Origin: Natrinema saccharevitans
Lineage (GTDB): Archaea > Halobacteriota > Halobacteria > Halobacteriales > Natrialbaceae
Assembly (NCBI RefSeq): GCF_001953745.1
Contig: NZ_LWLN01000001.1
Location: 1,364,001 to 1,428,000, forward strand
Direction: 5' to 3'
DNA length: 64,000 bases
Positions 29,931-51,064 of this stretch are shown piece by piece. Each line of letters starts with the position of its first letter. The first letter of the stretch is position 1. A model generated the notes under the pieces. That model was not told where the DNA came from. It did no database searches and saw only the letters and a list, made by a program, of their open reading frames with translations. A program made the position numbers and the translations under genes.

Positions 29931-31727
29931 TCAGTGGAGGAACTGCCGTAACGCGGCGAGCTCCCAGGTGTTGATCACGTCCGCGGGCTCGGCCCAGCCC
30001 CGCCGCGCGGTGTGGACGCCCCAGCGCACGTACTCGAGCGTCGCGGGCCGATGGGCGTCGGTGTTGACGGCGATCACCGCGCCCTCGTCTATGGCGGCCT
30101 GAACGGCGCTGCCCCAGAGGTCGAGCCGCCGGGGATTGCTGTTGACCTCGAGGGCGGTGTCGTGGTCGGCGGCGGCCGCCCCGAGCGCGGTCGCGTCGAA
30201 CTCGAGGCCGGAGCGCTCGTTGAGCAGGCGGCCGCTTGGGTGGCCCAACACGTCGATCGCCGGGTTCTCGACGGCGCGGACGAGCCGCTCGGTCGCGGCC
30301 TCGGCGTCTTGGCTCAGGGCGCTGTGGGTCGAGGCGACGATCACGTCCAGCGCGTCGATCACGTCGTCGGAGAGGTCGATCTCGCCCGCGGCGTCGACGT
30401 TGGCCTCGATCCCCGCGAAGACCTCGATTTCGGCGTCGTCGCCGACCGCGCGGATTTCTTCGACCTGCTCGAGGATGTCGTCGTCGGCAAGCCCCATGTC
30501 GCCGACGACGCCCGGGCCCTCTGCGTGGTCGGCGATCCCGAAGTAGTCGTAGCCCCGATCAGCGGCGGCCTCGACCATCGCCTCGACCGAGGTGTTGCCG
30601 TCGGACCACTCGGTGTGGGTGTGCAGGTCGCCGCGGATATCGTCGCGCTCGAGCAAGGCCGGTAACTCCCCGGCCGCCGCGGCTTCGATCTCGCCGCGAT
30701 CGGTCCGGAGTTCGGGCGGAATCCAGTCCAGCCCGAGCGCCTCGTACATCCCTTCCTCGGTATCGCCTGCGACGCGGTCACCGACGCGCTGGTCCACCTC
30801 GTGGTCTTCGACGTCGTTGTCGGACTCCGTCCGACTGCTCGAGGCGCTACGCGCCTCGCTGCTGACGTCGAAGGCCCCGTACTCGTTTAGCTTCATCCCG
30901 CGGTCGATCGCGTAGTTGCGCAGGGCGACGTTGTGGTCCTTGCTCCCGGTGAAGTACTGCAGCGCCGAGCCGAACTCCGCGGGGACGACGACCCGCAGGT
31001 CGACGCGGCTCTCGCCGACGCGGACGCTGGCCTTCTCGGGGCCGGATTCGATCTCGTCGTCGACGGAGTCCCACGCGAGCAAGCCCTCGACGACCGCCTC
31101 GCCGTCCGCGGTCGACGCGAGGACGTCCACGTCGCCGATCGTCTCGCGCCACCGGCGGATCGAGCCGGCGACCTCGCAGCGCTCGACCGCCTCGAGGCCC
31201 TCGAGGTACGCGAGGACGTCGTCGGCCAGCGGCCGGGCCTCCCCCAGGAGCTGGCGCTGGCCGACCGTTCGGGCGAACTCGAGGTTCTCGAGGATGTTCT
31301 GCTCGGTCTTCGGTCCGAACCCCTTGACTTCCTGCACCTCGCCGTCCTCGGCCGCTTCCTCGAGGTCGTCTAGCGTCTCGACCCCGAGTTCCCGATACAG
31401 CTTCCCCGCGGTCTTGGGGCCGACGCCCTCGATACGGGTGATGTCGGCGATGTCGATCGGCAGCTCGCCCCGCAGCTCCTCGAGTTCTTCGATCCCGCCG
31501 GTCTCGACGTACTCGCCGATCTTCGCCGAGATGGCGTCGCCGACGCCGTCGATGTTCTCGAGGACCTCGCGGTCGCCGGCCGCGACCCGGTCGGCGATCG
31601 GCGAGGGGTGGGCCCGGACGTTCTCGGCCGCCCGCCGGTAGGCGCGGGGCTTGTACTCGACGTCGTCGGCCTCGAGCAGGTCGGCGAACTCCTCGAGTCG
31701 GGCCGCGATCTCGGCGTTGGTCGTCAT
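29931..31727 (-). CDS. polX: X-family DNA polymerase/3'-5' exonuclease with PHP domain
   Basis: A 598-residue repair enzyme. The order is 8-kDa-like domain and helix-hairpin-helix repeats (about 1-150: ENIDGVGDAISAKIGEYVET, ITRIEGVGPKTAGKLYRELG), nucleotidyltransferase palm (GSIRRWRETIGDVDVLAST), thumb with GSKDHNVALRNYA, and a C-terminal PHP exonuclease (GDLHTHTEWSDG, ASTHSALS, LGHPSGRLL, NTDAHRP). It fills short gaps and trims 3' ends. Between thumb and PHP sits a Ser/Asp-rich insert (about 288-322) encoded partly by a double hairpin (30819-30857), so not all of the protein is ancestral. The start overlaps the upstream DUF5788 stop by ATGA. Confidence 0.93.
   Translation of the reverse strand: MTTNAEIAARLEEFADLLEADDVEYKPRAYRRAAENVRAHPSPIADRVAAGDREVLENIDGVGDAISAKIGEYVETGGIEELEELRGELPIDIADITRIEGVGPKTAGKLYRELGVETLDDLEEAAEDGEVQEVKGFGPKTEQNILENLEFARTVGQRQLLGEARPLADDVLAYLEGLEAVERCEVAGSIRRWRETIGDVDVLASTADGEAVVEGLLAWDSVDDEIESGPEKASVRVGESRVDLRVVVPAEFGSALQYFTGSKDHNVALRNYAIDRGMKLNEYGAFDVSSEARSASSSRTESDNDVEDHEVDQRVGDRVAGDTEEGMYEALGLDWIPPELRTDRGEIEAAAAGELPALLERDDIRGDLHTHTEWSDGNTSVEAMVEAAADRGYDYFGIADHAEGPGVVGDMGLADDDILEQVEEIRAVGDDAEIEVFAGIEANVDAAGEIDLSDDVIDALDVIVASTHSALSQDAEAATERLVRAVENPAIDVLGHPSGRLLNERSGLEFDATALGAAAADHDTALEVNSNPRRLDLWGSAVQAAIDEGAVIAVNTDAHRPATLEYVRWGVHTARRGWAEPADVINTWELAALRQFLH
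30819..30857. repeat. In-frame double hairpin inside polX
   Basis: Two perfect 7-bp stems with 3-base loops lie side by side: GTCGGAC TCC GTCCGAC, then TGCTC, then GAGGCGC TAC GCGCCTC (plus strand). They encode part of the linker SEARSASSSRTESDNDVED between the polymerase and PHP domains. The architecture and the TGCTCGA junction recur in the HNH gene at 35592-35635. Confidence 0.75.
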
Positions 31728-35376: not shown

Positions 35377-35958
35377 CTACCGCTCCGAGTCGTCGTATCG
35401 CTCCGCCGCCGACTCGAACCCCAGTTCCGACTGTTCGCGCCCGCGACGCTGCTCGAGGGCCGCGATCGCGTCGGGGTCGGGCGCGGCGTCGTCGGTGATC
35501 CGCGCCCACGAGTCGTGGACCTTCGAGTGGCACCAGCGACAGAGATAAACCGTGATCTCGTGGGAGAGGGTCTCGCCGTCGCGGTCGTCTTCAGAACGCG
35601 GAGCGTTCTGATTGCTCGATGGACGCTGTCCATCGTTGTAGGAGAGGTGATGTTCCTCGAGCAGCGGCCGCTCGTCGTCGTGGGCCATGCGCTTTTCGGC
35701 GAGGCCGCAGCGAACGCACTCCCGATCGCGGTTTCGCGACCGGAAGTGCGGACAGTCGGCCCACGACCAGTCGGACTCGGGGTCGACGACGGGACACTCG
35801 TAGTCGTCGTCAGCGCGCTCGCGGGCGAACTCGGGGTCGTGTTCGTAGTGGTCGACGGCGTACCGACATTTCCCCTCGCCGGTGAGGTGATCGCAGACGC
35901 CCGCGAACTCGTAGGGGTCGTCGACGCCGACCGAGGTCCCCTGCGGCGTTTTCTCCAT
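35377..35958 (-). CDS. HNH-nuclease-like protein with Cys-rich N-terminus (DUF7097-like)
   Basis: A 193-residue protein. The first about 70 residues contain GVCDHLTGEGKCRYAVDHYE, YECPVV and ADCPHFRSR, a haloarchaeal Cys/His pattern. It then enters an HNH-type fold: RECVRCGLAE, LLEEHHLSY (the HH pair of the HNH motif), and YLCRWCHSKVHDSWARI (zinc knuckle and final His). Cleavage activity is inferred from the motif only. Between the two HNH halves lies an insert (QRPSSNQNAPRSEDDRDG) encoded by a double hairpin at 35592-35635. ATG 35958 is used; a GTG four codons upstream is also possible. DUF7097 is recalled, not checked. Confidence 0.75.
   Translation of the reverse strand: MEKTPQGTSVGVDDPYEFAGVCDHLTGEGKCRYAVDHYEHDPEFARERADDDYECPVVDPESDWSWADCPHFRSRNRDRECVRCGLAEKRMAHDDERPLLEEHHLSYNDGQRPSSNQNAPRSEDDRDGETLSHEITVYLCRWCHSKVHDSWARITDDAAPDPDAIAALEQRRGREQSELGFESAAERYDDSER
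35592..35635. repeat. In-frame double hairpin inside the HNH gene
   Basis: Two perfect 8-bp stems with 3-base loops: CAGAACGC GGA GCGTTCTG, spacer ATTGCT, CGATGGAC GCT GTCCATCG (plus strand). On the coding strand it encodes DGQRPSSNQNAPRSED. Layout, loop size and the TGCTCGA junction match the polX element. Confidence 0.8.
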
Positions 35959-36075
35959 CGTCGCCGACACGTAGGGTCCCGGGGGTGTTGAATCGCCCGC
36001 CGTGCGGCCGAGGCGATCGGCCGTCGGCCATCGCCGTCGATGGGATTTTGCCCCCGGCCCGCGTCACCGCCGACC

Positions 36076-36848: not shown

Positions 36849-36906
36849 CGGATCGGTATCCGAACCGGCGGTTTTAAGACACCGTGATACGTTGTGACGG
36901 GATACA

Positions 36907-36987
36907 ATGGCACGCCATACGCCATCTGACGAGGATAGAGGAAGTCGGGGCGACCCGGCTGGGCGTGAAATTCTCCGACGAGTATAA
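36907..36987 (+). other. Upstream ORF in the leader of the citramalate/isopropylmalate synthase gene
   Basis: A 26-codon frame starts at ATG 36907 (MARHTPSDEDRGSRGDP...) and ends TAA 36985-36987, 46 bases before the TTG proposed for the synthase. GGTTTTAAGAC at about 36870-36880 would start transcription just before it. Its last residues are REILRRV, with Ile, Leu and Val close to the stop. Whether it is translated is unknown. Confidence 0.35.
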
Positions 36988-37033
36988 CCACCGTTCCGAC
37001 GAAGACACCCGCAGTTCCCGGAATTCACCACTC

Positions 37034-38566
37034 TTGCCTGTAACTCACTCACCCGAACAGACGATCGCATCGGACCGTACAGTACGCCTGCTGGACACGA
37101 CGCTTCGCGACGGCGAACAAGCGCCGGGCGTCTCGCTCTCGCCGGACGAGAAGGTCGAGATCGCCCGCTCGCTCGAGCGCGCGGGCGTCTCGGTCATCGA
37201 AGCCGGCAGCGCCTGTACCGGTGCGGGTGAGCGACAGGCCATCTCGCGGGTGACCGATCTCGATCTCGACGCCCGCGTCACCAGTTTCTGTCGCGGGATG
37301 AAAGGCGACATCGACCTCGCGCTCGACTGTGACGTCGACGGCGTCCACATCGTCGTCCCCGCCAGCGATCGCCACGTCGAGGGCAAGGTCGGCACCTCCC
37401 GCGAGGACAACCTCGAGAACACCGCCGAACTGGTCGCCTACGCCAAAGACCACGACCTCTGGGTCGAAGTCATCGGGGAGGACGGCTCGCGAGCGGATCT
37501 CGACTACCTCGAGCGACTGGCCGAGACCTCGCTCGAGGCCGGCGCGGACCGCTTTTGTTTCGCCGACACCGTCGGCCACACCGGGCCGGAACACACCCAC
37601 GAGGCCGTCTCCCGGCTCGCCGACCTCGGCCCGGTCAGCGCCCACACCCACGACGACCTCGGACTGGGCGTCACGAACGCGCTCGCGGCCGTCTCGGCGG
37701 GGGCCGACCTGGTCCACTGCACGGTCGACGGCCTCGGCGAACGCGCCGGCAACGTCGCCTTGGAGGAGGTCGCGATCGCGCTCGATCACGTCTACGACGT
37801 CGAGACGCTCGACCTGGAGGAAGTGTACGACCTCGCCCAGATCGTCGCCCGGGCGACGGGCGTCCAGCTCCCGCCGAACAAGGCCGTCATCGGCGAGAAC
37901 GCCTTCACCCACGAGAGCGGGATTCACACCGACGGCACGCTCAAAGACGACAAGATGTACGAGCCCTACGCGCCCGAGACGGTCGGGCGCGAACGCCGGC
38001 TCGCGCTGGGGAAACACACCGGCCGCGCGGGCGTCAGGGCCGCCCTCGAGGAACACGGCGTCGAGGCCGACGACGACGAGGTCGCCGAGATCGCGACCCG
38101 CGTGACGGAACTGGGCGACCGCGGCCGCCGGGTCACCGACGCCGACCTGCTGGCGATCGCCGAGGACGTGACCGGCGACGACCGCGACCGGGTCGTCGAC
38201 CTGCTCGACCTCTCTGCCACCAGCGGCGGGGCGGTCCCCACGGCCAGCGTCAGGCTGTCCGTCGACGGCGAGGAACGCGTCGCCAGCGGCACCGGTTCCG
38301 GCCCCGTCGACGCCGCCGTCTCGGCCGTCCGCGAGGCGCTTGGCTCGATGGCCGACGCCGAACTCGAGTCCTACCACGTCGACGCCGTGACCGGCGGCAC
38401 CGACGCCGTCGTCACCGTCGAGGTGACGATGGTCCGCGACGACCGCTCGGTGACGGTCGCCCGCAGCGAGGCCGACATCACTCGCGCGAGCGTGACGGCG
38501 ATGGTCGACGCGCTCGATCGGCTGCTCGCGGCCGACCAGCAACCGCTCGCACCGGCCGACGACTGA
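37034..38566 (+). CDS. 2-isopropylmalate/(R)-citramalate synthase family enzyme
   Basis: A 510-residue DRE-TIM metallolyase that condenses acetyl-CoA with 2-oxoisovalerate (leucine route) or pyruvate (isoleucine route). Signatures: RLLDTTLRDGEQAPGVSLS (DRE-TIM), VSAHTHDDLGLGVTNALAAV (HxH metal site), GERAGNVALEEVAIAL and NAFTHESGIHTDGTL. The C-terminal about 120 residues are the LeuA allosteric domain, so end-product feedback is expected. LeuA and CimA cannot be told apart safely by eye. The start is uncertain: TTG 37034 gives a normal N-terminus, while GTG 36884 is also open. A short upstream ORF precedes it. Confidence 0.9.
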   Translation: MPVTHSPEQTIASDRTVRLLDTTLRDGEQAPGVSLSPDEKVEIARSLERAGVSVIEAGSACTGAGERQAISRVTDLDLDARVTSFCRGMKGDIDLALDCDVDGVHIVVPASDRHVEGKVGTSREDNLENTAELVAYAKDHDLWVEVIGEDGSRADLDYLERLAETSLEAGADRFCFADTVGHTGPEHTHEAVSRLADLGPVSAHTHDDLGLGVTNALAAVSAGADLVHCTVDGLGERAGNVALEEVAIALDHVYDVETLDLEEVYDLAQIVARATGVQLPPNKAVIGENAFTHESGIHTDGTLKDDKMYEPYAPETVGRERRLALGKHTGRAGVRAALEEHGVEADDDEVAEIATRVTELGDRGRRVTDADLLAIAEDVTGDDRDRVVDLLDLSATSGGAVPTASVRLSVDGEERVASGTGSGPVDAAVSAVREALGSMADAELESYHVDAVTGGTDAVVTVEVTMVRDDRSVTVARSEADITRASVTAMVDALDRLLAADQQPLAPADD

Positions 38567-48532: not shown

Positions 48533-51064
48533 ATGATGCCTACTGACGACGACGCGGACCACCTCGGGGACGCGACCGCGTCGTTTCTCGCGGATCATGA
48601 GGATGGCGAGGGTGCACTCGAGGCCGCCCTCGCGGTCGACGCCGACCACGAGACGTGGACGTTCGACGATGTGGATCTAGACTCCGGCACGTTCGGCGAA
48701 CTCGTCTCTCGCGGGATCGTCGAAACGGTCGACGACGAGTATCGGGTTGCGGACGCCGACGTCGTCGGGGCGGTCCTGACGGGTGACGAACTCGAGTCGG
48801 CGGCGGGAGACGACGGGGTCACGGTCGACCTCGGCCTCGAGCAGTTCCGGAACGCCGTCGATCCGCGGGCGCTGGCGGCGCTGCTGGGGGCCCTACTGGT
48901 TGTCGCAGCGGCCCGGATGACGGCCTATCGGTCGGTGTTCCAGCAGGGGTACGTGGTGTCGCCGGGGAACGACCCGTACTACTTCCGGTACTGGATGGAG
49001 CGACTCGTGGCGGAGACCTCGGGGCCGACGGAGTACGGGATACTGGTGGATCCCCCTCACAGCGTCGCAATAAAGCGACCGTTCGCCCACGCGACGAACT
49101 GGTTCGTCGCCGAGTTACTCGGCGGTGGACAGGGGGCAGCCGACACCGTCGCGGCCTGGCTCCCCGTCGTCGCGTCCGTCGCGCTCGGGCTCGTTATCTA
49201 CAAGATCACTGTTCTGCTGACTCGAGACGTTCGCGTCGGGATCTCCTCGGTCCTCGTCTTCGCCGTGACGCCGATCCACGCGGTCTACACGGGGTTGGGG
49301 TTCATCGACCACCAGCTCCACCAGTACTTCTGGCTCGGCATCACGCTGCTGACGCTGACGTGGCTCGCCGTCGACCTTCAGCGGCGGCTCGAGGCCGGAG
49401 CCGAGCCGCAGGCGAGCGTGCGGGCACAGCTTCGAACGCCGCTGACGTGGGTCGTCGCGCTCGTCTTCGGCTGCTCGGTCGCGGCTGGAATCCACGCCTG
49501 GGGCGGCTCGCCGTTACTGCTGCTCCCGCTCGCGGGCTACGTCGCGTTGCGGGTCGCGATGGACGCTCGAGCGAACGTTTCGCCCGTCCTCGCGAACCTG
49601 CCGTTACTCGCGGGGCTCGCGCTCGGGAGCTGGCTCTCGCTGGCGCTGCATCACCGCTGGGGCTGGCACGCGGAGTTCGTCGCGACCACGCCGGCGCTGG
49701 TGCTCGGTGGTGCGATCGCCGTCGTCGCGGTCGGCGAGCTGTGGCGGCGCGTCGATTTTCATTACGGCGGGTTGCTCGCGCTCGAGGCTCTCGTCGGAGC
49801 CGGTGGTCTCTACGCGTTCAAGCGACTACAGCCCGAGGAGTGGGCGGAAGCGATGACGCGCGTCGACGATCTGTTCTTTCGCGAGGGGGCGACCGAGACG
49901 GCGTCGCTGTTTGCGACGGAGTATTTCGTGATCTTCGGGCCGATGTACCAGCTCGGGATGGGGTTTTACCTCGCGCTCGCGGTGTTGGGCTGGGTCGCGT
50001 GGTTCGTCTCTCGGCGGTACGAGCCCGGCTGGTTGCTCGTCGGGACGTACACGGGGTATCTGCTCGTACTGGCGGGGATTCAGGTCCGCTTCGCCGGGCA
50101 GCTGGCGATCCCGCTGGCCGTACTGACGGGGCTCGGCGTCGTCCAGTTGCTCGCCGTCGTCGATCTGGCACGGACGCCGGTCCCGTTCCGCGGCTCGGAC
50201 GGATCGGACGCCGGGGCTCGAGCTCGTGGGCCAGTCGCTGCCGACGGTGGTGAACGAACCGACGGTGAGAGCGAGCGAAGCGAGCGCGATCCGCATCGGA
50301 ACGCTTTGCGTTCCGAGGACGGCGGGCGATCGATCGACACCTCGATCACGCTGCCGGACGGTCGGCGGATCGGCTACCTGTGCGGGATCGGGCTGCTCGT
50401 GTTCGGGCTGAGCCTGATCTACGTGCCCGGCCTGACGGCGGACGTGACACACGGTGAGGCGAAGATCGACGCGGTCAGCGCGATCGACGACCACGCCGAG
50501 ACGGCGAACCGGTCCTACCCCGAAAACTACGTGTTGAGCGAATGGGGCGACAACCGTATGTACAACCACTTCGTGAACGGCGAGTCACGGAATTACGGGT
50601 ATGCACGGGGTAATTACGGAGAGTTCCGGGCTAGTTCGGATCCAGATAGCCGGTACGAACAGTTCGACGGCCGGGTCGGCTACGTCGTGATCACCGACGT
50701 CGACAGCGAAGCACCGGCCGAGAGCGCGCAGATGCAGTTGCTCGAGGAGCACGGCGCGGGCGGTGAAAGCACTGACGGGTTGGCTCACTACCAGGCCCTG
50801 GCCGTCGACGACGAGGCTGCGGCGTTCGCCGTGGTTCCGGGGGCGACGCTCGAGATGCCCGGTGAGCTGGAATCGAACGTGACCGCGAGTACGACGGTCT
50901 CCGTGTCGGGCGACTCGTTCACCTACGAGCGATCAGTTGCCGTTGGAGACGATGGGCAGGCAGCAGTGACGGTTCCGTATGCCGGCGAGTACAGCGTCGG
51001 TAATCGAACGGCGACCGTCACTGAGGACGACGTACTGAACGGGAGCACTGTCGCACTCGAGTGA
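48533..51064 (+). CDS. AglB-like oligosaccharyltransferase (STT3 family), divergent
   Basis: An 843-residue GT-C membrane protein. About 110 soluble N-terminal residues precede 12-13 membrane helices; the first external loop has PGNDPYYFRYWMERL (site of the usual metal-binding D/E-x-D) and a later loop GLGFIDHQLHQYFW. The extracytoplasmic domain carries EWGDNRMYNHFVNGESRNYG where STT3 has WWDYG, so the acceptor-site motif is strongly altered. It should move a lipid-linked glycan to protein or another acceptor; canonical N-glycosylation is not certain. A linker before the last helix contains an in-frame hairpin (50297-50315). It leads the glycan locus; starts at 48533 or 48536. Confidence 0.85.
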   Translation: MMPTDDDADHLGDATASFLADHEDGEGALEAALAVDADHETWTFDDVDLDSGTFGELVSRGIVETVDDEYRVADADVVGAVLTGDELESAAGDDGVTVDLGLEQFRNAVDPRALAALLGALLVVAAARMTAYRSVFQQGYVVSPGNDPYYFRYWMERLVAETSGPTEYGILVDPPHSVAIKRPFAHATNWFVAELLGGGQGAADTVAAWLPVVASVALGLVIYKITVLLTRDVRVGISSVLVFAVTPIHAVYTGLGFIDHQLHQYFWLGITLLTLTWLAVDLQRRLEAGAEPQASVRAQLRTPLTWVVALVFGCSVAAGIHAWGGSPLLLLPLAGYVALRVAMDARANVSPVLANLPLLAGLALGSWLSLALHHRWGWHAEFVATTPALVLGGAIAVVAVGELWRRVDFHYGGLLALEALVGAGGLYAFKRLQPEEWAEAMTRVDDLFFREGATETASLFATEYFVIFGPMYQLGMGFYLALAVLGWVAWFVSRRYEPGWLLVGTYTGYLLVLAGIQVRFAGQLAIPLAVLTGLGVVQLLAVVDLARTPVPFRGSDGSDAGARARGPVAADGGERTDGESERSERDPHRNALRSEDGGRSIDTSITLPDGRRIGYLCGIGLLVFGLSLIYVPGLTADVTHGEAKIDAVSAIDDHAETANRSYPENYVLSEWGDNRMYNHFVNGESRNYGYARGNYGEFRASSDPDSRYEQFDGRVGYVVITDVDSEAPAESAQMQLLEEHGAGGESTDGLAHYQALAVDDEAAAFAVVPGATLEMPGELESNVTASTTVSVSGDSFTYERSVAVGDDGQAAVTVPYAGEYSVGNRTATVTEDDVLNGSTVALE
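50297..50315. repeat. In-frame hairpin inside the AglB-like gene
   Basis: CGGAACGC TTT GCGTTCCG, a perfect 8-bp stem with a 3-base loop, followed by GAGGAC. It encodes RNALRSED; the HNH-gene element encodes QNAPRSED from CAGAACGC TCC GCGTTCTG. It lies in the low-complexity linker GERTDGESERSERDPHRNAL. Confidence 0.75.

Follow-up and report, generated by a model that had tools for sequence, protein, structure and literature searches.

An in-frame two-hairpin insert in a haloarchaeal DUF7097/HNH gene, a module of a dispersed repeat family

The window analysed here, a 64,000-nucleotide stretch of the Natrinema saccharevitans genome, carries in a DUF7097 gene a 51-nt insert which is one module of a dispersed, previously unnamed two-hairpin family of Halobacteriales. 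We lean, if slightly, towards regarding this in-frame insert as a non-autonomous REP/RPE-like palindromic module that spreads, or is reshaped, through fold-back template switching. The features of the locus are the following:

35377..35970, minus strand: host gene, a 197-aa ORF for a DUF7097 protein with an HNH-like zinc motif (EEHH ... CRWCH).
35587..35637, minus strand: inserted 51-nt module AACGATGGAC...TCTGAAGAC, 17 codons NDGQRPSSNQNAPRSED, missing at exactly these codons in most orthologs.
35617..35635, minus strand: first hairpin (HP1), CGATGGAC-AGC-GTCCATCG, 8 bp with a 3-nt loop, the stem being locus-specific.
35612..35616, minus strand: linker AGCAA joining both hairpins (family consensus AGCRR).
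35591..35611, minus strand: second hairpin (HP2), TCAGAACGC-TCC-GCGTTCTGA, 9 bp, the stem conserved across the order and the loop variable.

The sequence-only reading of this locus had described two perfect 8-bp stems with 3-base loops, placed between the two halves of an HNH domain. Both palindromes are present and they do lie between EEHHLSY and CRWCHSKVH of the ORF, with the EEHH and CRWCH motifs on either side of the insert; the stem at 35617-35635 has the 8 bp described, whereas that at 35591-35611 has 9 bp. On the minus strand, the insertion site reads TAC/AACGATGGACAGCGTCCATCGAGCAATCAGAACGCTCCGCGTTCTGAAGAC/GACCGCGACGGCGAG. As DNA or as RNA, the module folds into exactly two hairpins (z = -5.9 for DNA, a fold equalled in stability by 0 of 200 shuffles; z = -4.4 for RNA), and double hairpins of at least 8 bp lying at most 10 nt apart were observed once in 464 kb of the same genome versus 0.02 expected, and not at all in 8 shuffles. 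A spliced intron was considered and dropped: the hairpins are plain, with 3-nt loops, the archaeal bulge-helix-bulge motif is absent and the frame is open. The same reading had proposed an insertion forming a surface loop. The insertion is borne out by the existence both of orthologs that have precisely these 17 codons and of orthologs that lack them, while the loop is plausible only from the position in the HNH beta-hairpin, the AlphaFold model of the host protein being too poor to place the insert (pLDDT 42); the insert probably occupies a surface-exposed part of the protein.

The comparison of orthologs with and without the insert, proposed as a check, covered 75 sequences (47 from named genomes and 28 congeners) and revealed both kinds, so that the 17 codons are not residues common to all orthologs. 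Most of the 75 are empty and read EEHHLSY-(A/D/E)RDGE-..HEIT, whereas the 51-nt, 17-codon insert is found at the identical point in the window genome, Natrialba aegyptia, Natrialba asiatica, Natrinema pallidum, Natrinema gari and the MAG QS_9_68_17. Empty alleles are also found in genomes G062, whose gene is identical to that of N. mahii, and G075, whose gene is identical to that of N. thermotolerans, the encoded proteins being 97% and 96% identical, respectively, to that of the window. The HNH module is thus an insertion/deletion polymorphism. On a gene tree built with the insert left out, the filled/empty label needs five changes, gains or losses, a pattern which may reflect a single old insertion with subsequent precise losses, recurrent insertion at the same site, or recombinational transfer. 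Some stem changes are paired and keep the pairing, and the covariation of the HNH stems alone across strains is not significant; in the N. pallidum and N. gari copies HP2 is decaying with the frame still open.

The layout shared by the family is a variable HP1, the linker AGCRR, HP2 (TCRGAACGC-NNN-GCGTTCYGA) and the sequence NRAY. Taking as search pattern the linker plus HP2, with loops left free, and the reversed pattern as a control, we retrieved about 80 places in 52 of 125 genomes of the host's taxonomic family (one match with the reversed pattern) and, across Halobacteriales, matches in 76 of 392 genomes, belonging to 34 of the 95 genera (no match with the reversed pattern). Of 60 copies, 77% have a hairpin immediately upstream of the linker; at control positions the figure is 5%. 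HP1 has a different stem at nearly every locus, more than 30 among these 60 copies, and is still perfectly paired. Several unrelated genes nevertheless carry a similar HP1, CGTCGAGC-AAA-GCTCGACG, which suggests that HP1 may partly travel with the module rather than being copied from the target.

In-frame modules were found in Hef (locus L123), a DUF255/YyaL-like protein (L106), PurA (L113), histidine kinases (L103, L254-L257, L260, L262) and others, gene names besides PolX, DUF7097 and AglB having been assigned by reading the sequence, without a profile search. The peptide encoded by these in-gene modules is S-x-Q-N-A-x-R-S-[DE]-D, so the N-A-x-R-S-E coding pattern expected by the sequence-only reading does recur in unrelated proteins of other genomes. 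In Hef, the 51-nt insert is carried by G062 only (1 of 29 genomes) and missing in 28 congeners; the DUF255 gene is filled in G016 only, among the relatives read. Exact HP2 gave no match in viral contigs, leaving a viral origin unsupported, and in plasmid records the intergenic element described below gave partial matches only. Searched against Rfam, the modules matched no family at gathering score; the sub-threshold matches to Bp1_781 and CRISPR-DR20 were judged to be chance.

Two further hairpin features of the window concern PolX and AglB:

30816..30860, minus strand: second module, a 45-nt in-frame insert in PolX (SEARSASSSRTESDN), with HP1 CGAGGCGC-GTA-GCGCCTCG and HP2 TCGGAC-GGA-GTCCGA.
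50296..50316, plus strand: HP2-like single hairpin in AglB (RNALRSED), CGGAACGC-TTT-GCGTTCCG, without AGCRR linker and without HP1.

The TGCTCGA junction said to be common to the HNH and polX elements is confirmed at 30819-30858, where the same succession of hairpin, AGCA and hairpin occurs. The PolX module represents a second HP2 subtype, TCGGAC-NNN-GTCCGA, and three of 29 Natrinema-group genomes searched (G000, G062 and G076) carry its 45-nt insert, the congeners read being empty. As for AglB, the claimed resemblance of QNAPRSED to RNALRSED holds for one hairpin and stops there, with neither linker nor HP1; since this hairpin sits in a length-variable stretch, it is not established as an insert, and AglB is unsupported as a third module. 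Within the window genome, an exact search for the whole module returned the HNH copy itself only, and PolX is the sole further module of the HNH type in 464 kb, other linker-anchored double hairpins not exceeding the reversed controls. The only two clear two-hairpin modules of these 464 kb, at 30816-30860 and 35587-35637, are less than 5 kb apart.

Multi-copy intergenic elements with four hairpins and near-inverted ends GTGGTTCGA/TCGAACGAC were also observed in other Halobacteriales families (L283-L302). In three other families of the order they read CGTGGTTCGA [HPa] TCGTCATYGC [HPb] TAGCAG [HP2] CGACATCA [HPd] TCGAACGACAGC, and four of them (L284, L285, L287 and L298) contain one additional two-hairpin module. 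Seen in the context of these elements, an in-gene insert amounts to about one module, and the four-hairpin elements with inverted ends are likely to be the reservoir of the family. Modules occur in tandem both within these elements and at the icd stop codon. At its 3' end, icd has a hot spot of such tandem hairpin units (L228, L230, L243, L104); the gene end recurs in each unit as a synonymous variant, and L228 shows at least three near-identical 56-nt units.

It is at icd and the histidine kinases that the order of the parts can be read as X-X'-linker-HP2-X, HP1 consisting of a local gene sequence X and its reverse complement X'. At the icd end (..NIEKLS/A-stop) of many genomes, an X' complementary to the gene's own codons is followed by the linker, a hairpin and the gene-end copy again, with up to three or more such units in tandem. 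A perfect arm of at least 8 nt matching their own X is present in 20 of 44 gene-end units, while an arm fits the X of another unit in just 40 of 380 comparisons; several module-free icd genes have no complementary arm after the stop. Differences in the downstream icd copies are mostly synonymous, a pattern suggestive of allelic recombination rather than of simple duplication. In the histidine kinases, the N-box AVEHG acts as X; its repeats are written in different codons, and behind each stands an arm complementary to that repeat. At L254-L257, two or more repeats of AVEHG occur with the hairpin-encoded linkers STSNQNAxRSDD, an arrangement likely to be a source of misaligned kinase domains. 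Over 33 dissimilar loci, the flanks before and after the module are more alike than mismatched pairs (0 of 5000 permutations), mainly owing to icd and the kinases. Short target-site duplications had been suggested for the ends of the HNH insert; no clear classical one was found, its own flank pair ranking second of 33. The flank repeats that can be drawn at HNH, Hef and PolX (e.g. CGAYGG, GACGAG) are too short to convince in GC-rich, repetitive coding DNA.

In related copies, one loop is often the reverse complement of the other. The PolX HP1 loop is GTA in G000 and TAC in G062 and G076, and, among the places listed, distinct HP2 loops within genomes form eight reverse-complement pairs, where 2.2 would be expected (p = 0.0002). 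Documented in yeast genes, polymerase template switching from one short inverted repeat to the other homogenises arms and inverts spacers (PMC8604942). The process we envisage for the module resembles it in combining arm homogenisation and spacer inversion in coding DNA, and differs from it in that template switching is a mutational process acting on existing repeats, whereas the module belongs to a dispersed insertion family.

From these observations, we infer that the module would move, or be built anew, while DNA is being replicated or repaired. At the target, a 3' end would fold back and copy itself, giving X'; copying would then switch to a module template, giving the linker and HP2, and return upstream of X, which would thereby be duplicated. 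Later template switching from arm to arm would keep stems perfect while flipping loops. Within genes, the survivors would be only those inserts whose length is a multiple of 3 nt and whose frame, S-x-Q-N-A-x-R-S-[DE]-D, is open; read in another frame, the conserved TGA of HP2 would be a stop. A stricter form of this scheme, which we put forward only tentatively and consider doubtful as a whole, is that the module brings no more than a short linker and one hairpin and, whenever it inserts, makes the other anew by copying the target in a fold-back, the repeated target restoring the icd stop region and the histidine-kinase N-box. We know of no other small repeat with such a target-templated mode of insertion.

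Alternatively, these could be old insertions kept for a function, as a structured RNA or a charged surface loop, patchiness resulting from losses and homologous recombination and perfect stems from selection. Haloarchaea recombine often, the same HNH site is filled in several lineages with the five gains or losses noted above, paired changes preserve some stems and the linkers are conserved in the intergenic elements, all of which this explanation would accommodate. It nonetheless seems unlikely in view of the close relatives that lack the HNH module, of the two Natrinema copies whose HP2 decays in an open frame, of the occurrence of modules in unrelated proteins, of loop inversion, which is a mutational signature, and of the failure of the modules to match any Rfam family at gathering score.

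A second alternative is that the module is a minimal IS200/IS605-type end-pair (PATE) or a RAYT-mobilised REP, which a Y1 (HUH) transposase would move in the form of single-stranded hairpin DNA. The PATEs and SMRs of Haloquadratum are described as palindromic, transposase-free mobile haloarchaeal repeats (PMC3119063). Subterminal hairpins, very small size and a haloarchaeal host are common to PATEs and the module, 52-bp terminal-only PATE forms exist (PMC3119063), and Y1 transposases are encoded in most Halobacteriales genomes tested. Copy number does not, however, track the presence of Y1_Tnp: it was not found in the copy carriers G241 (25 copies, 77% complete), G366, G048, G373, G165 and G246, some copy-rich genomes being incomplete, and is present in copy-free genomes. 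Moreover, PATEs are described as palindromes related to IS605 ends and lacking target duplication (PMC3119063), in contrast to the repeated target sequence at the icd and histidine-kinase loci; the GTAG tag is missing, the linker being AGCRR, and a locus-specific HP1 is not expected from a fixed transposon end. Set against PATEs in this way by description, transposase-driven movement appears quite improbable. SMR-A has inverted ends and an unknown mobiliser (PMC3119063), and by description the intergenic elements resemble it in their near-inverted ends. Neither for PATEs nor for SMRs do the sections consulted mention single modules placed in frame within genes, or stems that are specific to a locus.

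Finally, chance palindromes in low-complexity, GC-rich coding DNA have a negligible probability, for although single 8-bp hairpins are common in the window genome (43, against about 33 in shuffles), the number of adjacent double hairpins expected in 464 kb is 0.02, the reversed family pattern gives no matches across the order, and the empty/filled alleles already refute this explanation.

Our preferred reading, a non-autonomous palindromic module subject to fold-back template switching, invites comparison with bacterial repeats. Rickettsia palindromic elements are short palindromes tolerated in frame within unrelated proteins (PMC10969869, PMC3733652), and in-frame palindrome insertion is likewise seen in the empty/filled pairs of HNH, Hef and PolX. 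By description, the archaeal module is set apart from these elements, which are about 100-150 bp long and found in Rickettsia, by its length of about 45-54 nt, its two hairpins, its locus-specific HP1 and the repeated target at some loci. The CGTC and GTAG superfamilies of REPs have 8-9 bp stems, hairpin pairs and intergenic and intragenic copies, including in DNA-repair genes, and no transposase is known for the CGTC type; REPs are reported for bacterial phyla, haloarchaea not being named (PMC3733652). Stem length, hairpin pairs and a position inside and between genes are thus shared with the module. REPs differ in their unpaired GTAG or CGTC tag and, for the CGTC type, in loops of 4-5 nt. 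Our linker tally gave AGCRR/GCAG and no GTAG; as to the CGTC tag, many of the intergenic and icd copies have GACG as their HP2 foot, which is CGTC on the opposite strand, but the HNH copy has GAAG, and the loops are of 3 nt. The BOX elements of Streptococcus pneumoniae lie between genes, are built of stem-loop modules and vary in how many internal modules they contain, and they share with the present family their modular stem-loops; we know of no BOX element that builds a stem from its target, and the two are set apart by description. No published description of the module family was found in a search that left subscription journals mostly outside, so an earlier description is possible.

The discovery of the Rickettsia elements raised the question, still open, of how short palindromes get into protein-coding genes and remain there. 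In the archaeal family, clean empty/filled sites can be compared between close relatives and lie in well-conserved genes (Hef, PolX, PurA, icd), and its hosts are close to genetically tractable haloarchaea, in which mobility and template switching are directly testable. The module also accounts for odd insert motifs of haloarchaeal proteins (SNQNAxRSDD, DAVEHGSTSN), which could mislead alignment and annotation.

Elsewhere in the window, a leuA-Halobacteria cis-regulatory RNA (RF03001, 73 bits) was detected at 36924-36976 on the plus strand, within the ORF 36884-38566; accordingly, this leuA-like gene probably has its true start downstream of the RNA.
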